This document shows, one piece after another, positions 2,553 to 33,437 of a stretch of DNA of 43,675 nucleotides. Each line of letters begins with the position of its first letter. Positions within the stretch are counted from its first letter, which is position 1. The stretch covers positions 1 to 43,675 of the forward strand of contig JAMNZY010000229.1 of NCBI GenBank assembly GCA_023622055.1, given 5' to 3'. The notes under the pieces are model-generated. The model had not been told where the DNA came from, made no database searches, and saw only the letters and a list, made by a program, of their open reading frames with translations. Both the position numbers and the translations under genes were made by a program. This DNA comes from Bacillota bacterium. GTDB taxonomy: Bacteria; Bacillota; Thermosediminibacteria; Thermosediminibacterales; Tepidanaerobacteraceae.

Positions 2553-3695
2553 ATGCCAAATCCAATGGATTATAAAATTGGAATAATCGGCGGTGGTCAG
2601 TTAGGCAAAATGCTGGCCCAGGAGGCAAGAAAATTTAACTTTTCCGTAACCGTGTTAGATCCTACGCCTCAGTGCCCTGCATATTCCTTAGTTGACAAAC
2701 AAATTGTGGCTGGATTTTACGATGATGAGAAAATCCGCGAGCTGGTTGTAAACAGCCATATTACAACCTTTGAAATTGAGCATATAAGCACTAAAGTGCT
2801 AAAGGAGCTTCAGGCTATGGGGCATAAAATATATCCCTCTCCTGAAGTCCTGGAAATAATACAAGATAAGGCAAAACAAAAACAAATGTTGGACAAGTAC
2901 GGCATACCCACTGCCCGCTGGTCTCTTGTAGAAGGGGACTTAGATGAGGCAGCAAGGAATTTTGGCATGCCTGCAGTTCAAAAAGCTCGAAAAGGGGGCT
3001 ATGACGGCCGGGGCGTTTTTGTAATTGAAAAGCCTCAGGACATAGCAAATGCCCTGGAAGTAGAATCTTTCCTGGAAGAACTGGTCCCTGTAGAAAAGGA
3101 ACTGGCTGTTATGGTGGCCAGGAGCATTAATGGTGAGATAAAATGCTATCCTGTAGTGGAAATGACCTTTGACAGCAAGGCAAATATATGTGACGATACT
3201 GTGGCTCCTGCGCGAATTGAGGAATCCATAAAAAAAGAAGCTGAAGATTTGGCCATCAGATGTGTAAAAGCATTAGACGGCGTAGGGATTTTCGGTGTGG
3301 AGATGTTTTTGACAAAGGACAAGAGGGTCTTAGTCAATGAAATTGCCCCAAGACCCCACAACTCCGGCCATTACACCATAGAAGCCTGTGTTACCTCTCA
3401 ATTTGAACAGCATTTAAGGGCCATCACCGGTTTGCCTTTAGGTTCCACAGATCTCATAATGCCAGCAGTAATGGTTAATCTCCTTGGAGCAGAAGGTTAT
3501 CAAGGTAAGCCCTATTTTGAAGGGGTTAATGAGATACTTAAAATTCCAGGAGTTAACTTACATATATATGGAAAAAAGGAGACCAAACCTTATAGGAAAA
3601 TGGGCCATGTAACTATTGTGGACAAAAATCTTGATGATGCTTTAGAGAAAGCAAAGATAGTTAAGGAAACTATAAGAGTGGTTTCGGAGGGATAA
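2553..3695 (+). CDS. purK: 5-(carboxyamino)imidazole ribonucleotide synthase
   Basis: [33 protein letters not shown]-grasp motifs, followed by purE. Confidence 0.95.
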
Positions 3696-4297: not shown

Positions 4298-5260
4298 TTA
4301 CGCCACAGTATTTTCTACTACTTTCCACTTGTTGCACCTATCTCCCCACCGGGCAATAACTTTTCCTTCCATTTTGATATTTACCACTTCGCAGTGATTA
4401 GGACAGCCATTGCATTCAAAGCTGTCAGCTGTAAAATTGATGTCAGAAAGGCCAAATCCCTTAAACCGGGTTTTGGAAACTTGAGCATCTTTAGCCAGCA
4501 GTGCTGCACCTAAAGCGCCCATTACGTCATAATGCTTTGGTATATATATCTCTTCCCCAAGGGCATCTTCAAAAGCTGCCTTCATACCTGCATTAGCTGC
4601 CACTCCACCCTGAAAAACTATGCGAGGCCTAATTTCTTTTCCCTTAGCAATATTGTTAAGATAGTTTCTCACCAGTGCTTCACATAAACCCCGGATAATG
4701 TCTTCAGGTCTGTGTCCTAACTGCTGCTTGTGCACCATGTCCGATTCAGCAAAAACTGCGCATCTACCGGCTATGCGGACAGGATTTTTTGACTTTAACG
4801 CGTAATTGCCAAATTCTTCAATGGGAATATTTAATCTATTTGCCTGTTGATCCAAAAAGGAACCAGTTCCAGCGGCACAGACGGTATTCATGGCAAAGTC
4901 TGTAACCACACCATCTCTAATAATGATAATTTTGGAATCCTGACCCCCTATTTCAAGGACTGTTTGCACATCGGGGACTTCTCGTAGTGTTGCAACGGCA
5001 TGGGCTGTTATCTCATTTTTAACCACGTCGGCACCAACGATGACACCGGCCAGGTTTCGACCGCTGCCCGTAGCCCCTACTCCCCGCACATCCCAATCGC
5101 CTTTATTTTTAGATGCCAGTTTTCTCATACCTACCTGGACAGCTTTTATGGGATTGCCCTGGGTCCTTATGTATATAGATTCCTGTACATTTTCCTCTTC
5201 ATCGATTAACACAAGATTAGTACTGACTGAACCCACATCAACACCTAAGTAATACGCCAA
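4298..5260 (-). CDS. 2-hydroxyacyl-CoA dehydratase activase (BcrAD/BadF/BadG ATPase family)
   Basis: MAYYLGVDVGSVSTNLVLIDEE..., GGQDSKIIIIRDG, NTVCAAGTGSFLDQQA, FQGGVAANAGMKAAFE; C-terminal Cys motif. Confidence 0.9.
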   Translation of the reverse strand: MAYYLGVDVGSVSTNLVLIDEEENVQESIYIRTQGNPIKAVQVGMRKLASKNKGDWDVRGVGATGSGRNLAGVIVGADVVKNEITAHAVATLREVPDVQTVLEIGGQDSKIIIIRDGVVTDFAMNTVCAAGTGSFLDQQANRLNIPIEEFGNYALKSKNPVRIAGRCAVFAESDMVHKQQLGHRPEDIIRGLCEALVRNYLNNIAKGKEIRPRIVFQGGVAANAGMKAAFEDALGEEIYIPKHYDVMGALGAALLAKDAQVSKTRFKGFGLSDINFTADSFECNGCPNHCEVVNIKMEGKVIARWGDRCNKWKVVENTVA

Positions 5261-6388
5261 TTAAGCCATCTCCTTTGCTACTTGTGGTTTTACCGCAAAA
5301 GACTTGGTTCGTCTGCGCTTGGCCCTTAGCAAATCCACAAATGCTTCTATACGAGTTCTAAGGCCTTCTTTTCCCGTTTGCTCATCCAGACTTATAGTCA
5401 AGAAACCTATTTTGTGGTCTCTGCATACTGTGGGCAAGATGCTTTTTGCTACGATTTCAGGTATACAGGTAAAAGGAGAAAGCTGAATTACTCCATCGAA
5501 CCCCCTCTTTGCAAAGAGTATTGCATTGCCTACAGATTCCCTACCATGACCGCCGCACATTTCCTTAAAGTAAGGAGCAGCTGTCTTTTTAACATCCCGC
5601 TCGCCAGCCATGTGAAATAAGTCCATCACTGCATTGGATATAGTATAATCTGAAAGAAACATAGATCTTTCTACATAAACTCCTAGGTCACCTAACATCT
5701 CCTCAATTTCTAAATTTGAGGAGGGTTCAAGGAGGACATATATTTCTCCTACTATACCAATTTTAATAGGCTCATAATCCCTTTTTTCTATATTATCATA
5801 TAAAAGTTCACATTCCCTTTCTATTTCTCTCAAATCCCCGTATTTTTCCGCAGATGCGATCATGTCCACACACTTTTTGTAAACTTTAGTAGCTTCACCT
5901 TTTTTCACTTCTACAGGGCGGACTTTGTGAGATAGACGCTCCACTTTGTCAAGGAGCACTAATTGCTTCCAAACGAATTTCGTAATATTTATATAATCTC
6001 TCCAAGTGAGGGGAGCATTTATCAGCTTTTTTATGTTGTAGAGCAAATCTCTAAAGTGCCTTCCAGGTGGTTCTAATGTAATCATCTCAAATTCATATCC
6101 CAAATCTTTTAATATCTTTTCCTGAAGGGTTGTATAAAGGCCTGCCCTACATGGGCCTACGCCTCCTGATGACACAAGAGTATCTGCTCCTGCTTCAAGG
6201 ACTTGGACAAAAGTGCCTAATACAATCTTAAAGGGATAACAGGCAAATTCGGGAGCGAATTTTGTCCCAAAGCTTATGGTTTCTTCCGTGGGCTTTGGAG
6301 GAATTACTACTTCATTTCCAAAAGACGTCAACAATTTTTTGAAAGGAATGTAAGATGTCCCCATATAAGGAAATGAAACCTTTCTCAT
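5261..6388 (-). CDS. Acyl-CoA dehydratase activase-related protein (COG3581/DUF2229-like)
   Basis: MRKVSFPYMGTSYIPFKKLL...FAPEFACYPFKIVLGTF...MCGGHGRESVGNAILFAKRGFDGVIQLSPFTCIPEIVAKSILP...ISLDEQTGKEGLRTRIEAFVDLL. Confidence 0.8.
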   Translation of the reverse strand: MRKVSFPYMGTSYIPFKKLLTSFGNEVVIPPKPTEETISFGTKFAPEFACYPFKIVLGTFVQVLEAGADTLVSSGGVGPCRAGLYTTLQEKILKDLGYEFEMITLEPPGRHFRDLLYNIKKLINAPLTWRDYINITKFVWKQLVLLDKVERLSHKVRPVEVKKGEATKVYKKCVDMIASAEKYGDLREIERECELLYDNIEKRDYEPIKIGIVGEIYVLLEPSSNLEIEEMLGDLGVYVERSMFLSDYTISNAVMDLFHMAGERDVKKTAAPYFKEMCGGHGRESVGNAILFAKRGFDGVIQLSPFTCIPEIVAKSILPTVCRDHKIGFLTISLDEQTGKEGLRTRIEAFVDLLRAKRRRTKSFAVKPQVAKEMA

Positions 6389-7344
6389 GCCAATGCCGCC
6401 TCTTTCTTAGCTTTCTTGATTTTTAGCATATCAACAAAGGCTTCCAGTCTTGTATTTAGACCTTCTTGACCTGTGTGTTCATCAATGGTTACCGTTAGGA
6501 ACGGCATATTATACTTTTTAGCATCAATTTCCATTAGTTTATCTACAATAAAATCAGGACCACAGCCAAAAGCTGTGACGTGTATTATACCATCCACACT
6601 TCCCTTTTCAAATAAGCTGTAAGCCGTTCTTATCACTTCATTGCTGAAAGTCCAAAACAAGTTTTTTCTAATCTTGCCCACCTGTTTTTGCTTATCTTCT
6701 TTAGCAATCATTTCAGGAGTAACCACGTATACTCCCATGTCAATGAGCTTTTTGATAAGGTCAAGACTCAAATAGGGATCATATAATATGTATGGGTACC
6801 CCACCACTGCAAGGGTTATGGCTTTGTTCTTTTTTTGACCCACAATTCCCAAAGGAGGAATTCCCCCTTGCAAAAATTGATGGGCATAATTTTTCAAACT
6901 TAGACATGCCTTCAAATATGCGTTATAAGCCTTAAAGAATCCTTTTTTGAACCTCCTGGCCAATTTCATGCAAAGCTTGAAAAGCTCAAATCTGCTCTTT
7001 TTTAAATCAATCCGCACTTCCAGCATGTTTTTTAATTTTGGTATGGAGCAAATTACCATATCAGGCAAACCCAAAAATTTGGGACAAAAGGTGGCCTCAT
7101 GATTGACACTCACAAGTCTTGGCACAAAGACATAATCTACCCGATTCATGAGATTTCTGACATGGCCATGGAATAATTTCAGAGGAACACAGGCATCGGT
7201 GATGGTATCTTCAATACCCAAATCCATAATTTCCTTGGTGGTTTCATCTGACACTACTACCTCAAGGCCTAATTTCTCAAAAAATGTGGTAAAAAAGGGG
7301 TAGTATGCATAGTAAGCCAGTGCTCTTGGAATGCCAATTTTCAT
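6385..7344 (-). CDS. Acyl-CoA dehydratase activase-related protein (DUF2229-like)
   Basis: MKIGIPRALAYYAYYPFFTTFFEKLGLEVVVS...DACVPLKLFHGHVRNL...VTIDEHTGQEGLNTRLEAFVDML; 4-bp overlap with the downstream gene. Confidence 0.8.
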   Translation of the reverse strand: MKIGIPRALAYYAYYPFFTTFFEKLGLEVVVSDETTKEIMDLGIEDTITDACVPLKLFHGHVRNLMNRVDYVFVPRLVSVNHEATFCPKFLGLPDMVICSIPKLKNMLEVRIDLKKSRFELFKLCMKLARRFKKGFFKAYNAYLKACLSLKNYAHQFLQGGIPPLGIVGQKKNKAITLAVVGYPYILYDPYLSLDLIKKLIDMGVYVVTPEMIAKEDKQKQVGKIRKNLFWTFSNEVIRTAYSLFEKGSVDGIIHVTAFGCGPDFIVDKLMEIDAKKYNMPFLTVTIDEHTGQEGLNTRLEAFVDMLKIKKAKKEAALA

Positions 7345-7471: not shown

Positions 7472-8875
7472 TTATTTGTTCTGCAAATACTCGTGAATAG
7501 ATTGAGCGGCTTTTTTGCCGGCACCCATAGCCAAAATAACTGTAGCTGCTCCAGTAACTATGTCTCCTCCTGCCCAGACTCCTTCCTTTGATGTCTTGCC
7601 GTTTTCATCTGTTTCTATATATCCGTATTTGTTGAGCTTTATCCCTTCTGTTGCCCTAATTAATAGCGGATTGGGGCCAGTGCCAATTGAGATGATTACT
7701 GTATCCATATCCAGGATAAACTCAGAACCCTCTATTGGAACAGGTCTACGCCTACCTGAAGCATCTGGCTCTCCAAGTTCCATTTGAATACATTCTATAC
7801 CTTTAACCCATCCCTTTTCATCGCCTATTATGCGGATGGGATTTGTCAAAAATTTGAAGATGATACCTTCTTCTTTGGCATGTTCAACTTCTTCTTTTCT
7901 GGCAGGCATTTCTTCTTCTGAGCGGCGATAAATTACATATACCTCTTCAGCACCCATTCTAAGGGCAGAACGGGCAGCATCCATTGCCACATTTCCCCCA
8001 CCTACAACAGCCACTTTTTTCCCAACTTTAACAGGAGTGTCGGTTTCAGGGAAATTATATGCTTTCATAAGATTTATTCTTGTTAAAAATTCATTTGCCG
8101 AGTAAACTCCCAGATAATTTTCTCCTGGGATGTTCATGAATCTAGGCAGACCTGCACCGGTTCCTATAAACACAGCATCATAACCTTCTTTTTCTAAAAG
8201 GTCATCTACCGTTAGAACTTGACCCATTACCATGTTAGTCTTAACTTCTACTCCCAGCTTTTTTATAAACTCTACTTCTTGTTTTACTATTGCTTTAGGC
8301 AGCCTAAATTCAGGTATACCGTAAATCAAGACTCCTCCTGGTTCATGAAAGGCCTCAAAGACTGTAACCTCATAGCCCAGTTTTGCCAAATCTCCTGCAC
8401 AAGTAAGACCTGCCGGTCCTGAACCGATAACAGCTACCTTTTTCTGACGAGATACTGGTTTTTCAGGAACCTTTGTGCCCTGCTCTCGCTCCCAGTCAGC
8501 TGCAAACCTCTCTAAACGTCCTATAGCAACCGGTTCACCTCTTTTGCCAAGGACACATCTTTTTTCGCATTGTTCTTCTTGGGGGCATACGCGACCACAT
8601 ACGGCAGGAAGACTGTTTGTCTCTTTTATAACTTTAATGGCACTTTCAAAGTCCTCTTCAACAATATGTTTGATAAAGTGAGGAATCTTAACGTGCACCG
8701 GACAACCTTCCATACAGGTTGGGTTTTTACAGTTCAAGCAGCGCCGGGCTTCATTGATTGCCTCTTCCACCCTGTATCCTAATGCTACTTCATTAAAATT
8801 TCTGCCCCGCTCTTTAGGGTCTTGCACCGGCATAGGTGTTTTAGTTTTGCTGCGATTTATTGATGACATTTGCAA
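7472..8875 (-). CDS. nfnB: NADPH-dependent glutamate-synthase-like oxidoreductase; probably NfnB (NADH-dependent reduced ferredoxin:NADP+ oxidoreductase subunit B)
   Basis: GltD-family Cys clusters CLNCKNPTCMEGCPVHVKIP..., two Rossmann motifs (VAVIGSGPAGLTCAGDLA; VAVVGGGNVAMDAAR); directly follows an NfnA-like gene. Confidence 0.85.
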   Translation of the reverse strand: MQMSSINRSKTKTPMPVQDPKERGRNFNEVALGYRVEEAINEARRCLNCKNPTCMEGCPVHVKIPHFIKHIVEEDFESAIKVIKETNSLPAVCGRVCPQEEQCEKRCVLGKRGEPVAIGRLERFAADWEREQGTKVPEKPVSRQKKVAVIGSGPAGLTCAGDLAKLGYEVTVFEAFHEPGGVLIYGIPEFRLPKAIVKQEVEFIKKLGVEVKTNMVMGQVLTVDDLLEKEGYDAVFIGTGAGLPRFMNIPGENYLGVYSANEFLTRINLMKAYNFPETDTPVKVGKKVAVVGGGNVAMDAARSALRMGAEEVYVIYRRSEEEMPARKEEVEHAKEEGIIFKFLTNPIRIIGDEKGWVKGIECIQMELGEPDASGRRRPVPIEGSEFILDMDTVIISIGTGPNPLLIRATEGIKLNKYGYIETDENGKTSKEGVWAGGDIVTGAATVILAMGAGKKAAQSIHEYLQNK

Positions 8876-23094: not shown

Positions 23095-24285
23095 TCAAAA
23101 TAATTGCCTTTTTTTAAATTCTTGAATTTGTTCTTCTGTGTATCCTAACTCTTTTAAAATGCTTTCATTGTCTTCTCCCAGTACTGGGGGGCTTTTGCGT
23201 ATTTCAGCAGGTGTCTCACTTAAGGTTATCGGGCAGGCAATAACTCTAATATCACCAGCCTTTGGATGATGGATTGTCTGAATAATGTTGCTATGAACAA
23301 CCTGAGGGTCTTTTACTACCTCATCATATCTGTTTACTTTTGCACACCAGAAACCCGCTTCCTGTAATTTTTCAATCCAGTATTCCGTCGTCTGCTTTTT
23401 AATGCCGGCTGCTACTATGGGATATATTTCATTGCGGTTTTTTAACATTTCAGCCTTATCTTTCGCCAGATGCCTTATGCTTTCTATACCTACTATTTCG
23501 CAGAACAAGTCTATTTTCTCAGGAGGCACATTGGATATACCCATATACCCATTCTTGGTCTCATAGATTCCATAAGGTGCTTCACTATGCACCTGAGAGG
23601 AATACCCCTTGGGTCTTTGCGGGAGTTCTCCAGTGTTAAGATAATATGTTAATTCCTGGCATTGCATATGTAATGCTGAGCTTAACAGATTGACTTCAAC
23701 AAACTGCCCAGAACCGCCTTTCATCCGGTTGATTAAGGCAGCTTGAATCCCATTTGCCAACAAAGATGCACTGTACATGTCTATCAAAAAGGTGCCTCCG
23801 GACATTGGTGGCCCATCAGGACCTACAATCGTTGTATATCCACTTAAGCATTGGGCTAAAAAGTCTTGTCCGGGTAAGTCTGCATATGGCCCTGAGCTGC
23901 CGTATCCTACGGCTTGGGCAAAAATTATATTTGGATTGATTTTTTTTGCATCCTCATATCCAAATCCGAGCTTGTCCAAAACTCCTGGGCGGAAATTGGT
24001 AACAATCACGTCAACCTCTTTTATTAATTTATAAATAATCTCTTTAGCCTCTGGTTTCTTCAAATCTAGTGACAAGCTGCGTTTGTTTCTGTTCATTGCC
24101 AGGAAATAAGGGCTCTCTCCACCTAGGCGATCTGGTGACGCTAAATGAGTACGATTAAAATCTCCCGTTCCAGGGCGTTCAATGTTTATAATCTCCGCTC
24201 CAAGATCTCCTAACAGTTGTAATGCAAAAGGGGCTTGTGCAAAATGTGTAAAACCTAAAATTTTGACTCCATCCAATGCACCCAT
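23095..24285 (-). CDS. CaiB/BaiF family CoA-transferase (copy 1)
   Basis: LGFTHFAQAPFALQLLGDLGAEIINIERPGTGDFNR, NRNKRSLSLDLKKPE, VTNFRPGVLDKLGFGYE, PGQDFLAQCLSGYT. Confidence 0.93.
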   Translation of the reverse strand: MGALDGVKILGFTHFAQAPFALQLLGDLGAEIINIERPGTGDFNRTHLASPDRLGGESPYFLAMNRNKRSLSLDLKKPEAKEIIYKLIKEVDVIVTNFRPGVLDKLGFGYEDAKKINPNIIFAQAVGYGSSGPYADLPGQDFLAQCLSGYTTIVGPDGPPMSGGTFLIDMYSASLLANGIQAALINRMKGGSGQFVEVNLLSSALHMQCQELTYYLNTGELPQRPKGYSSQVHSEAPYGIYETKNGYMGISNVPPEKIDLFCEIVGIESIRHLAKDKAEMLKNRNEIYPIVAAGIKKQTTEYWIEKLQEAGFWCAKVNRYDEVVKDPQVVHSNIIQTIHHPKAGDIRVIACPITLSETPAEIRKSPPVLGEDNESILKELGYTEEQIQEFKKRQLF

Positions 24286-27461: not shown

Positions 27462-28673
27462 TTATTTCTTATCAACCTCACCTAAGACCCCTTCTGCCTT
27501 TAGCTCAGCTATTTCAGATTTACTATAACCCAATTCCTCCAGAATTTCCTCCGTGTGCTGACCCAGAAGCGGTGGTGGTATACGAATTTCAGCCGGGGTT
27601 TCACTGAATTTAATCGGTGTTCCTATAACACGCACCTTCCCCGCCTTCGGATGCTCCATAACCTTTATGATTTCATTATGAATAACTTGAGGATGATGGA
27701 TTGCCTCTTCATAAGTGTTGGTCTCTGCACACCAAAAGCCCTCTGCTTTGAACTTTTTCAACCAATAATCCGTAGGTTTCTTTTTTATTACTTCGGAAAT
27801 CAAATCATAAATTTCTTCCCTGTTTTCCATCATTACCTTCTTGTTAGGCATAACCTCAATCAGGTTATCAATACCAAGTATTTCTCCAAAACGTTTGACT
27901 TCTTTCTCATACATGTTAGCGGAAATAGCAATGTAACCATCCAAAGTTTTATAGATACCATAGGGGGCTTCCTGATATACATGCCCAGTATACTTTTTGG
28001 GGCGTTTAGGTAGCACCCCGGTATTAAGGTAGTAGCCATATTCTTGAGACTGTAAATGAAATGCAGAATCAAGTAAATTTACCTCTACCTTTTGACCTTG
28101 CCCTGTTTTCATCCTATGGATTAATGCAGATAGAATACCGCAGGCGAGTATCATGGAACTATACATATCAATTACATAAACGCCTCCAGTGGAGGGCATG
28201 CCATCAGTGCCACATATAGAAGTATAACCACTGATACTTTGAATCAGTAAATCCTGACCAGGTTGCTGAGCATAAGGACCAGTACTACCAAAGCCTGAAG
28301 CTTCACAGTAAATAATAGGCGGATTTATTTTTTTGCAATCCTCATATCCGAGCCCTAACTTGTCTAATACACCCGGACGGTAGTTAGTAACTAGCACATC
28401 GGTTCGTTTCAATAGTCGCTCCATAACCTTCTTTGAGGCCCGCTTTTTCAAATCCAAAACCATGCTTCTTTTGTTTCTATTCATAGACAAGAAAAAGGGA
28501 CTTTGGTTCCCGGTTTTTTCGTTTGGAAAAAAGGTCCGGTTAAAATCCCCCGTACCAGGTTTTTCTATATTAATCACATTTGCCCCAAGATCCCCAAGCA
28601 GCTGCAAAGCAAACGGCGCCTGGGCAAAATGGGTAAATCCCAGTACTTGAATTCCTGTTAAAGGTCCACCCAT
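27462..28673 (-). CDS. CaiB/BaiF family CoA-transferase (copy 2, paralogue of 23095..24285)
   Basis: VLGFTHFAQAPFALQLLGDLGANVINIEKPGTGDFNR...VTNYRPGVLDKLGLGYED...PGQDLLIQSISGYTS; colinear with copy 1 throughout. Confidence 0.93.
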   Translation of the reverse strand: MGGPLTGIQVLGFTHFAQAPFALQLLGDLGANVINIEKPGTGDFNRTFFPNEKTGNQSPFFLSMNRNKRSMVLDLKKRASKKVMERLLKRTDVLVTNYRPGVLDKLGLGYEDCKKINPPIIYCEASGFGSTGPYAQQPGQDLLIQSISGYTSICGTDGMPSTGGVYVIDMYSSMILACGILSALIHRMKTGQGQKVEVNLLDSAFHLQSQEYGYYLNTGVLPKRPKKYTGHVYQEAPYGIYKTLDGYIAISANMYEKEVKRFGEILGIDNLIEVMPNKKVMMENREEIYDLISEVIKKKPTDYWLKKFKAEGFWCAETNTYEEAIHHPQVIHNEIIKVMEHPKAGKVRVIGTPIKFSETPAEIRIPPPLLGQHTEEILEELGYSKSEIAELKAEGVLGEVDKK

Positions 28674-30337: not shown

Positions 30338-30360
30338 AAATACCGGCTTTCGCCGGTATT
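30338..30360 (-). terminator. Intrinsic terminator of the B12/opine-dehydrogenase operon
   Basis: Minus strand AATACCGGCGAAAGCCGGTATTTTATTTTTTG. Confidence 0.85.
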
Positions 30361-30364
30361 AATC

Positions 30365-32014
30365 TTATACAGTGTTGCCTATTTTGTTTTCACTTAGTAT
30401 CCTATCGATGCGCTCTTTTTCGGAAATTATCCGATTCTCTTTTTCATCGTAGGCATATAGTGCTCCGTCTACTAAACGTGTAACTAATTTTCCACAAGCT
30501 GCCTCGTTTCCTCTAAGATGCGGTGCATCTAGGATTCCTATTTTAACAGCTTTAGCAAGGATAGCAGGATCTGCTAAAGGATCGTCTACATCAGAGCCCA
30601 GAGATTTTATAGCTTCTAAAGTGACTTGAGCTTCTTCGATAAGTTGGTTCTTCCGCTCCTGCACCTTTGGATCTTGAGTTATATCCACAGCTCCCAACAT
30701 TACGTTGCGGATTACACCCCGAACTATCTTGCAGCTTTCTATGATATCTTGGGCAGTTGCTGCATGATGGGCTTCACAATAACCCACCACATGATAGATA
30801 TGAGGCTTTATAGCCATTGCAAGATGGCAAGACGCTGCAAGCTGACCTTTTGCTTGGTTAAGGTCTACAGGTAAGCTGGCAATACCTGCCCGGGCTTGAC
30901 GGTACACTGTAAAGTTTTCGTCCTGCAAGCCTTCTATCAATTCTATTTTTGCCAGCATTTTGGCCAGGTCCATTGCCGGAGATATAGATGGGGGAACGTT
31001 GAACATATACTGGGCAACGTAATCTTTGACACCCATCTTCTTGGCATTGTAAGCAGCTAAAAATGCTGTGACAACACCTATAGTATCATGGGCATCCCTT
31101 AAGCTCCAATGATGAGATTCATTGACTTCTACGGGAATGTTTCGCTCCCCGTGCCACTTCATAACTTGCTGGTTTTCTCTAATGGCTTCTTCTACAGAGC
31201 GAGGGCCTCGCCTGTCTAAAACACTGTACCAATACAGAGGTACCGCACACCAGGCGTTTTTAATTGTTTCAGCCAGAAGCTCAGCAAAAGGAATAAGATT
31301 CTTCGTTCCACTATAGCAGCGAAGGATGGGATAATTGCCCCTTCGAGATGCTTTATAAAGGGCTTCAAAATCTTCTCGGCTTCTAAGAGGCACTCCACCT
31401 GCCCCATCTAATCTGCGATCCATTTTTTCCTGCTCGAAAAAGTGTTCCTGAGCATTTTGGTCAGGAGCCACAGATATTACATCTAGGACTTTGGATTCGG
31501 CTACTTCCTCAATAGCGGCAATGGTTTCTTCTAAGGTAGGCAAACCAATGTGATGCCGCAAGACTGGGTATGGATATTTTGACCATATCCTTGAAATCAA
31601 GTCTTGAGGATAGTCATCGCTTTTTGTGAAAGTTTTACCCTTCAAAAACCCAATGACCTCATCGGGATCTTGAGTTCCATCAAAGATAAAGGAGAAAATG
31701 CCGCTTTCCTTTGCCACTTCAGCAGTAGGTTCAGTGCCTCCAAAAATCCACTTTATATCTTTTAAACCTAGTTTAGTGATTTTTTCTTTCAATTCCACCA
31801 GGACTTTTTTGAGAGGTTCAGGTGTAAGTCTATAGCTTACACCAACATAGTCCGGTTTTTCTTCCTTTACTGCTTCCAGCAATTTATCAATAGAAACAGC
31901 CGCACCTAAAAAACGTGTGGCATATCCCTCGTGTTCTGCCAAATACAAGAAATTCATTATCCCTGCTACGTGAACGCAATTTCCTATTGAGGCAGCAATT
32001 ACCTTTTTCATCAT
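30365..32014 (-). CDS. Cobalamin-binding-domain protein with a TIM-barrel-like mutase domain (fused glutamate-mutase S+E-like), unknown substrate
   Basis: N-terminal KVIAASIGNCVHVAGIMNFLYLAEHEGYATRFLGAAVSIDKLLEAVKEEKPDYVGVSYRLT (B12-binding-like, variant HxxG); later SLRDAHDTIGVVTAFLAAYNAKKMGVKDYVAQYMFNVPP and AKAVKIGILDAPHL resemble glutamate mutase E-type barrels. Confidence 0.65.
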   Translation of the reverse strand: MMKKVIAASIGNCVHVAGIMNFLYLAEHEGYATRFLGAAVSIDKLLEAVKEEKPDYVGVSYRLTPEPLKKVLVELKEKITKLGLKDIKWIFGGTEPTAEVAKESGIFSFIFDGTQDPDEVIGFLKGKTFTKSDDYPQDLISRIWSKYPYPVLRHHIGLPTLEETIAAIEEVAESKVLDVISVAPDQNAQEHFFEQEKMDRRLDGAGGVPLRSREDFEALYKASRRGNYPILRCYSGTKNLIPFAELLAETIKNAWCAVPLYWYSVLDRRGPRSVEEAIRENQQVMKWHGERNIPVEVNESHHWSLRDAHDTIGVVTAFLAAYNAKKMGVKDYVAQYMFNVPPSISPAMDLAKMLAKIELIEGLQDENFTVYRQARAGIASLPVDLNQAKGQLAASCHLAMAIKPHIYHVVGYCEAHHAATAQDIIESCKIVRGVIRNVMLGAVDITQDPKVQERKNQLIEEAQVTLEAIKSLGSDVDDPLADPAILAKAVKIGILDAPHLRGNEAACGKLVTRLVDGALYAYDEKENRIISEKERIDRILSENKIGNTV

Positions 32015-33147
32015 GCCACCACCTCTTCATCGGGATTTATTACAGTGAGATATTCGCCGGATTCGGCAAATTCAAGGATTTCATTGGCGGTTAAATCTTT
32101 TAGACCTAGCTTCTTGGCAGTTCTGCCTTCTTCAAAAAAGTTTTTGCCTGTCATTATATTTGCCAATCGAATTATCGTGTCTATAGTTGGGGTTTCTATT
32201 CCCAGATTTGCCGCAATAGATGAAATGGGCACTAAACTGCACGGAACATCCTCATGTATATATCTCGTATCCAAACCTTTAGGAGCAGTAAGCCCTCTAT
32301 AGGCTGGATTGTTTTGAATAGCCTCATATATGGAACTGCCTTTGGCACCATAAGACTCCTCTAGCCACTGTCTAGCCGAGACAGCTTTAACACCTAAGGC
32401 TGTAGCAACCTTCATCCGCTCAGAGTCAAGTTTTTCCAGGATTTGACCGATGGATGGCGTTATGCCTTCCAGATAATATTCGAAAGTTTCTCCACGCTCA
32501 ATGTGGCCGCTGTTTAGCAGAGTAGGCGCCGGATGGAAAATGGCTCCAAAGTTGTTCAGGCTGGTTTCCATAACGTTCCTGGCCGGGGTAAACTGAGGAT
32601 AAGCCCCTGATAAAAGTCGTACGACTTTTTTTGTAAAGATGGCCGGAATTGCAGCCAGAGCAACTTCATGCTTGACACTAAATATCTTGGCACTTCTGGG
32701 CCCTGTAGCTCTGCAGGCATATATAAAGGTTTGAGCTTCCGCAACAACTACGTTCTTCTGACATCCCGCTTTCCGCAAAGTGGCATAAACCTCAAGTGCT
32801 CCACCGGTGCGGCCTGGGTTTAAAACAATTATCTGGCCATCCTCTAGATGAGGAGCCATCAACCGGGCTAATTCATAATGCCCAGTGGCAGGAGTAGTCA
32901 CCATTATAATATCCGTTTTTCGTATAGCCTCACCTATATCACACGTTACCTTATTTAACAAACCTGTTCCTTCTACCGAACCAGTCAATTCAATTGTGGG
33001 GTTCTCCATCAGGCTCTGGATTCTTGCCTGGGTTCTATTATAAAGATTTACTAAGAAACCTTTATAAGCCAGGTAACCTGCCATAGCCAGTCCCCCATTG
33101 CCTCCACCTATGACTGCATACCGCACATCCATAGGACTTATCATCAT
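32011..33147 (-). CDS. NAD/NADP octopine/nopaline (opine) dehydrogenase family protein
   Basis: YAVIGGGNGGLAMAGYLAYKGFLVNLYNRTQARI...IIMVTTPATGHYELARLMAPHLEDGQIIVLNPGRTGGALEV; 4-bp overlap with the B12 gene. Confidence 0.85.
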   Translation of the reverse strand: MMISPMDVRYAVIGGGNGGLAMAGYLAYKGFLVNLYNRTQARIQSLMENPTIELTGSVEGTGLLNKVTCDIGEAIRKTDIIMVTTPATGHYELARLMAPHLEDGQIIVLNPGRTGGALEVYATLRKAGCQKNVVVAEAQTFIYACRATGPRSAKIFSVKHEVALAAIPAIFTKKVVRLLSGAYPQFTPARNVMETSLNNFGAIFHPAPTLLNSGHIERGETFEYYLEGITPSIGQILEKLDSERMKVATALGVKAVSARQWLEESYGAKGSSIYEAIQNNPAYRGLTAPKGLDTRYIHEDVPCSLVPISSIAANLGIETPTIDTIIRLANIMTGKNFFEEGRTAKKLGLKDLTANEILEFAESGEYLTVINPDEEVVA

Positions 33148-33230
33148 AACACCCCTCCTTTGACGTATTTTTGGACAAAATTAAAGCTATGGAGATCCAT
33201 AGCTTTAGTGCAGAAAGAAGTAGCACTCAT
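33144..33230 (-). CDS. Putative 28-aa leader/uORF translationally coupled to the opine-dehydrogenase gene
   Basis: Minus strand ATG...TGA = MSATSFCTKAMDLHSFNFVQKYVKGGVL; GAGGAGG upstream; the TGA overlaps the next ATG (ATGA). Confidence 0.4.
   Translation of the reverse strand: MSATSFCTKAMDLHSFNFVQKYVKGGVL
33183..33206 (-). terminator. Expression-platform hairpin between riboswitch and coding region
   Basis: AAAGCTATGGA TC TCCATAGCTTT, perfect 11-bp stem followed by AATTTT. Confidence 0.6.
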
Positions 33231-33242
33231 AGCTAACAACCT

Positions 33243-33390
33243 CCTCTTCTCACGCCTGCGGGGTTAGCTGACGGGTTCGGGCCGAAGAGTAGCCCTACCC
33301 CTTCTTTAGTGGGTACATACCTAGTCGAAGGGGATTCACCCCAAAAATCGGGTCCCCCGCTTCTTTCCATTCAGAAAGAATTAAGCGTTC
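33243..33390 (-). ncRNA. ydaO/yuaA-type (cyclic di-AMP) riboswitch
   Basis: Minus strand GAACGCTTAATTCTTTCTGAATGGAAAGAAGCGGGGGACCCGATTTTTGGGGTGAATCCCCTTCGACTAGGTATGTACCCACTAAAGAAGGGGTAGGGCTACTCTTCGGCCCGAACCCGTCAGCTAACCCCGCAGGCGTGAGAAGAGGA; conserved GCGGGGGACCC, GGGGTGAATC, GGTAGGG, CCCGAACCCGTCAGCTAACC.GCAGGCG blocks. Confidence 0.92.
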
Positions 33391-33408
33391 TTAGGTTTTA
33401 GTTAGTTA

Positions 33409-33437
33409 ATTTTAACATATATTAAGGTTGCTGTCAA
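33409..33437 (-). promoter_or_regulatory. Sigma-A-type promoter of the riboswitch transcript
   Basis: Minus strand TTGACA - GCAACCTTAATATATGT (17) - TAAAAT, ~20 bp upstream of the aptamer. Confidence 0.75.

Follow-up and report, generated by a model that had tools for sequence, protein, structure and literature searches.

The operon considered here occupies positions 30365–33437, on the minus strand, of a window of 43,675 nucleotides, that is, the whole stretch of DNA that was analysed (contig JAMNZY010000229.1 of assembly GCA_023622055.1, from a member of the Tepidanaerobacteraceae in the Bacillota), and it consists of a riboswitch of the ydaO/yuaA class for cyclic di-adenosine monophosphate (c-di-AMP), a messenger in osmotic stress, followed by genes for an opine dehydrogenase (ODH) and a B12 protein. 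A sequence-only reading of this DNA had proposed a promoter, an aptamer, a terminator-like hairpin and two overlapping genes within exactly these limits, and all of these elements, as well as the limits themselves, were recovered. The conserved ydaO/yuaA blocks are legible directly on the minus strand, and the Infernal scan that had been called for (cmscan against Rfam 15) placed RF00379 (c-di-AMP/ydaO) at 33397–33239(-), matching the full-length model (1–134) with 102.1 bits and E=2.7e-23, where the gathering threshold is 38 bits; a tRNA was the sole further Rfam match inside the window. Twelve bases ahead of the aptamer lies a sigma-70-type promoter, TTGACA-N17-TAAAAT, at 33437–33409(-), with 11 of 12 consensus matches and a TG preceding its second hexamer; promoter-like matches are frequent by chance (14 in the region against 8.9 expected), and this copy is well placed. 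The expression platform is an intrinsic terminator at 33207–33174(-) with an 11-bp stem, a 4-nt loop and a U-rich tail, the hairpin proper spanning 33207–33182(-) and being followed by ATTTTG. Then come the ribosome-binding site AAGGAGGGG at 33160–33152(-), found by direct reading, the ODH gene at 33147–32011(-), encoding 378 aa, and the gene for the B12 protein at 32014–30365(-), encoding 549 aa, whose start overlaps the ODH stop by 4 nt (ATGA). An intrinsic terminator at 30360–30339(-), with a 9-bp stem followed by TTATTTTTTG, closes the operon. A short open reading frame with its own GGAGG, at 33237–33146(-), extends across the terminator of the riboswitch as far as the start codon of ODH; a leader peptide beginning at an ATG near 33227 and spanning the terminator was considered and dropped, its frame being kept in locus L004 and broken in L007 and L012 (L and G numbers denote the loci and genomes compared).

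The arrangement of the leader is conserved. A hairpin with a T-rich tail stands between the aptamer and the ODH start in 21/21 leaders of relatives checked, and the terminator stems vary among clades by compensatory changes (AAGCTATGG/CCATAGCTT, GACTATGG/CCATAGTC and GCTATAGA/TCTATAGC), which were taken from pairwise hairpins, a MAFFT alignment of the hairpins having misplaced the loops. A search of the relatives' leaders for an anti-terminator pairing conserved among them gave no consistent partner segment. Conservation of the terminator hairpin supports transcription termination and hence an OFF switch, and riboswitches of the ydaO class are generally OFF switches (PMC9960051); the leader sequences are thus consistent with OFF control of the ODH operon by c-di-AMP.

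How often such riboswitches precede this gene pair, a survey that the sequence-only reading had suggested, was determined in 61 genomes from around that of the window (G000 counted among them) and in 399 drawn evenly from its phylum, a sample that is not independent of phylogeny. The positions of ODH, riboswitch and B12 protein (hereafter the mutase, for reasons given below) were listed per genome and their geometry computed, with riboswitches sought by the Rfam model only. The mutase was present in 94 genomes from 40 families; ODH was encoded in 92 of them and lay no more than 8 kb from the mutase in 87. An RF00379 aptamer was located on the same strand and no more than 1.6 kb upstream of ODH in 53 of the 94, representing 21 families, at a median distance of 124 bp. 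Genomes of about 2.5 Mb hold one to a few of these riboswitches, so such proximity cannot be chance. Moreover, in five genomes from four families (G022, G023, G025, G326 and G367) ODH lies apart from the mutase and still has its riboswitch, so that the switch follows ODH; more distant ODH paralogues in G022 and G024 are without an RF00379 switch. One genome, G069, carries two aptamers in tandem directly before the ODH–mutase pair, at 7938–7815 and 7675–7549(-) (L156:7549–7938). Pair and switch occur in Caldanaerobacter/Thermoanaerobacter, and Thermoanaerobacterium saccharolyticum is a further carrier of the pair (L034).

The assignment of the first gene product as an opine dehydrogenase is borne out by its match to PF02317 (Octopine_DH, E=7.5e-51), and its nearest solved structure is 1bg6, the Arthrobacter CENDH (ArODH; E=1.2e-84). 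The catalytic His–Asp dyad, His202 and Asp297, is present in all 74 of the ODHs aligned. Metagenomic opine dehydrogenases from hot springs (mODHs), which share about 40% identity with ArODH, have L-aspartate, L-glutamate and cysteate as preferred substrates alongside pyruvate; mutagenesis has shown that their Arg111 and Gly198 set the preference for aspartate over phenylalanine, while Arg35 is associated with acceptance of NADPH (PMC10787698). In the window ODH, Arg113, Gly201 and Arg38 occupy ArODH positions 111, 198 and 35; the Arg111/Gly198 pair is kept in 73/74 ODHs, the window enzyme included and a paralogue (L111) being the exception, and Arg35 is found in 69/74. We therefore predict from these signature residues an ODH of the type using an acidic L-amino acid and pyruvate, with a predicted preference for NADPH.

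The B12 protein contains PF02310 (B12-binding, residues 4–107) as its only Pfam domain, and is divided into a B12 domain of approximately residues 1–130 (32014–31625) and a TIM-barrel-like domain of approximately residues 131–549 (31624–30368). Twenty-five relatives align well, and although the window protein itself is unmatched by PF06368 (Met_asp_mut_E, the MutE barrel), 15 of the 25 match this family at E<1 (best 2.5e-6). An AlphaFold2 model (pLDDT 90.7) has glutamate mutase E (1cb7_B) as its best PDB fold match, with E=6.1e-17, and lysine 5,6-aminomutase, ornithine 4,5-aminomutase and methylmalonyl-CoA mutase rank below it. Within the motif (C/D)xHxxG, His and Gly are invariant (70/70), and the first position is Cys in place of Asp in 64/70 and Asp in 5/70; many Arg and His residues are invariant in the family, as would be fitting for a substrate that carries several carboxylate groups. 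GlmL/MutL is the reactivator of glutamate mutase, and a gene for it is part of the gene run at L079 (G049), L085 (G024) and L162 (G238), that in L085 passing the NCBIfam GlmL equivalog cut-off and being located between ODH and the B12 gene. On the basis of the fold, the PF06368 matches, the B12 motif and the GlmL neighbours, we interpret the protein as a carbon-skeleton mutase dependent on adenosylcobalamin and, as a single-chain enzyme, related to glutamate mutase, so that the initial description ‘B12 mutase-like’ is now much stronger. In a comparison with pyridoxal phosphate (PLP)-dependent aminomutases, the IDIKHGG segment of OraE, which we take to be the site of the PLP lysine, aligns with the lysine-free NFLYLAEHEG of the B12 protein, and the fold match to PLP aminomutases is weaker than that to glutamate mutase.

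Two kinds of gene recur near the pair. A Ddl-like ATP-grasp gene lacking the N-terminal domain of Ddl separates the riboswitch from ODH in L143 (G252) and L144 (G339), and is located between ODH and mutase in L079, 3' of the mutase in L146, and close by in L081, L017, L019 and L021. An AsnB-type gene is located directly 3' of or close to the mutase in L027, L029, L032, L047, L148, L152, L153 and L158, 3' of ODH in L041, and upstream in L028 and L088. ATP-grasp and AsnB-type genes are never together at one locus, and their presence suggests that some lineages include an ATP-dependent step of amide formation. The AsnB-type genes of L088 and L028 each follow an RF00379 copy of their own (at 8541–8706 and near 3238, respectively), near the riboswitch–ODH–mutase operon. 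The Ddl gene beside the window operon was rejected as a member; it is a true Ddl, with both domains, and lies on the opposite strand.

Starting from the aptamer, terminator, gene pair, family assignments and conservation established by computation, we infer an OFF direction of control, substrates, an order of steps, a product and a role as follows. The two-gene operon would be transcribed from the promoter at 33437 under control of the riboswitch: at high c-di-AMP the aptamer would fold and the terminator at 33207 would stop transcription, and at low c-di-AMP ODH and the B12 mutase would be made. ODH would then use NADPH to couple pyruvate to an acidic, aspartate- or glutamate-like L-amino acid, the resulting opine being an N-(1-carboxyethyl) amino acid; the glutamate-mutase-type enzyme would either rearrange this opine, which we slightly prefer, or provide an amino acid already rearranged. 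A further, amide-forming step may be contributed in several relatives by an AsnB-type amidotransferase or an ATP-grasp ligase. As product we consider an anionic organic solute for osmotic or K+ balance most likely, a role proposed because of the regulator, the other RF00379 targets of the genome and the anionic nature predicted for the product. Those other targets come from a total of three RF00379 copies in the source genome, that of the ODH operon included: the second precedes a gene for an ABC ATPase that resembles OpuCA and has CBS domains, and the third a gene for an RlpA-like, double-psi-beta-barrel protein resembling lytic transglycosylases; the same genome encodes a diadenylate cyclase. 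The sequence-only reading had suggested that the pair makes or remodels an osmolyte or a cell-wall or amino-acid-derived metabolite, and the OpuC-like and lytic-transglycosylase-like targets, together with the acidic-amino-acid signature of ODH, lend indirect support to the osmolyte and amino-acid-derived metabolite. We give about an even chance to a c-di-AMP-repressed ODH/B12-mutase pathway leading to an anionic, opine-derived solute. The fuller proposal, namely that this is an unrecognised pathway in which an acidic-amino-acid opine is rearranged by a new family of B12 mutases, and sometimes amidated, to yield a novel compatible solute, is put forward only tentatively.

Several observations weigh against the proposed solute pathway. 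In 41 of the 94 mutase-bearing genomes, mostly from more distant families, no RF00379 switch was found beside ODH, so c-di-AMP control is not universal. The AsnB-type neighbours pass (L148 and L153) or approach the model for ordinary asparagine synthase. Profile comparison of the B12 protein with glutamate mutase E gave an hhalign probability of 17% and an E value of 0.0015 (HMMER E at best 2e-4), which was too weak for residue-by-residue mapping of the active site, and this mapping was dropped. In that weak and tentative alignment the residues that we take to bind glutamate in glutamate mutase (Arg66, Arg100, Arg149 and Glu171) do not align with conserved residues, for which reason the protein was not filed as a glutamate mutase. 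An orthologue of true glutamate mutase, with its own GlmL, is encoded elsewhere in the source genome and, taken together with the apparent lack of conserved glutamate-binding equivalents, this indicates that the substrate of the B12 mutase is probably not glutamate. Finally, no MutL/GlmL match was obtained in G004 and G006, two mutase-bearing genomes that are complete or nearly so, and the mutase may therefore not always need this reactivator.

Other explanations of the operon have to be set beside the solute pathway. It is unlikely, in our estimate, that the product of ODH and mutase is an amino-acid derivative of the cell wall, controlled by c-di-AMP as other wall genes are. An RlpA-like gene does follow one of the three RF00379 copies, a D-Ala-D-Ala-ligase-like ATP-grasp adjoins in several lineages (with a Mur ligase in L081), a true Ddl is divergent beside the window operon, and the genes preceded by ydaO riboswitches in Actinobacteria are nearly all wall-related (PMC9960051). 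However, the ATP-grasps of the operons lack the Ddl N-terminal domain and fall below every Ddl model cut-off, the window Ddl is encoded on the opposite strand, and in most lineages Ddl is no neighbour, and genes for transglycosylases, N-acetylmuramic acid metabolism and export do not recur at the loci. There is likewise little probability in a fermentative or redox role, in which ODH would re-oxidize NAD(P)H, the mutase would feed amino-acid fermentation and control by c-di-AMP would be secondary. The opine dehydrogenases of marine invertebrates act in just this way, as terminal dehydrogenases re-oxidizing NAD(P)H, and glutamate mutase with GlmL normally serves glutamate fermentation; the bearers of the gene pair are mostly anaerobes and NAD(P)H is used in ODH chemistry. 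Yet the NADPH preference predicted from Arg35 suits biosynthesis better, a classical glutamate mutase with GlmL is encoded separately in the source genome, and the most consistent regulator is the c-di-AMP riboswitch.

That the B12 protein is the partner of a corrinoid methyltransferase, or a B12 sensor, and no mutase at all seems to us improbable. Several corrinoid methyltransferase proteins match the B12 domain about equally well, the Asp of DxHxxG is usually Cys, as noted above, some mutase-bearing genomes are without MutL, and an earlier genome paper reported a ‘distant similarity to methionine synthase’ (PMC2626281). Against this, glutamate mutase E is matched by the 400 C-terminal residues, through PF06368 in 15 of 25 members and by fold with E=6e-17, ahead of all else, and in L085 a GlmL equivalog separates ODH from the B12 gene.

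If the product of the proposed pathway is a compatible solute, it would represent a new osmolyte class whose synthesis runs through B12 chemistry, and production of an acidic-amino-acid opine at low c-di-AMP is a prediction specific enough for metabolomics. The operon also places two orphan groups, the aspartate-type ODHs of hot springs and the single-chain glutamate-mutase-like B12 enzyme, in a physiological context. To the c-di-AMP riboswitches, known mainly for transport and cell-wall genes, it contributes a biosynthetic target that 21 of the sampled families share. The sequence-only reading had regarded the operon as the best candidate in the window for an undescribed system. The gene pair itself is not new, having been reported in the 2009 Halothermothrix orenii genome paper as an operon of ODH and a B12-binding protein, of unknown role, in thermophilic anaerobes, with the B12 protein compared to methionine synthase and no riboswitch mentioned (PMC2626281). 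No c-di-AMP link or chemistry for the pair was found in the literature searched, and no paper linking a riboswitch with opine or octopine dehydrogenase or with glutamate mutase, although published lists of ydaO targets may contain the pair; as far as could be checked, the regulated pathway is undescribed.

Elsewhere in the window, and judged from translations alone, positions 558–2327 carry convergent genes resembling an ATP-dependent DNA ligase and Ku, a bacterial end-joining pair, and 4298–7344(-) three consecutive genes resembling families of 2-hydroxyacyl-CoA dehydratase activases and CoA-substrate enzymes. Two similar genes for family III CoA-transferases lie a few kb apart, at 23095–24285 and 27462–28673(-), near genes for a LacI-type regulator, a GFO/IDH/MocA oxidoreductase and a branched-chain amino-acid ABC transporter.

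The system can be compared with four that are already known. It shares with the Halothermothrix orenii operon the same pair of ODH and B12 protein, but here the B12 protein matches glutamate mutase rather than methionine synthase, and the pair extends far outside the thermophiles, to Tissierella-like, Aminicenantes, Bacteroidales and Anaerolineales records (cf. PMC2626281). The window ODH and the mODHs have ArODH (PDB 1bg6) as their common closest characterized relative and share the specificity residues Arg111, Gly198, Arg35, Asn34, Thr/Ser36 and Asn/His14, a comparison made at ArODH positions; the mODHs were studied for biocatalysis, without gene context or physiological role (PMC10787698). 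The B12 enzyme resembles the glutamate mutase GlmS/GlmE in its His-ligand B12 domain and barrel, its GlmL neighbours and its best PDB fold match, but differs in being one chain with the B12 domain first, in usually having Cys for the Asp of DxHxxG, in its very low sequence similarity and in apparently not keeping the glutamate-binding residues. The riboswitch, finally, is an ordinary member of its class (RF00379), with a full-length aptamer, an upstream promoter and an intrinsic terminator before the first gene; what differs from the ydaO/yuaA class as known is the target, ODH and B12 mutase, which is biosynthetic and not a transporter or wall hydrolase, and, in G069, the doubling of the aptamer ahead of ODH.

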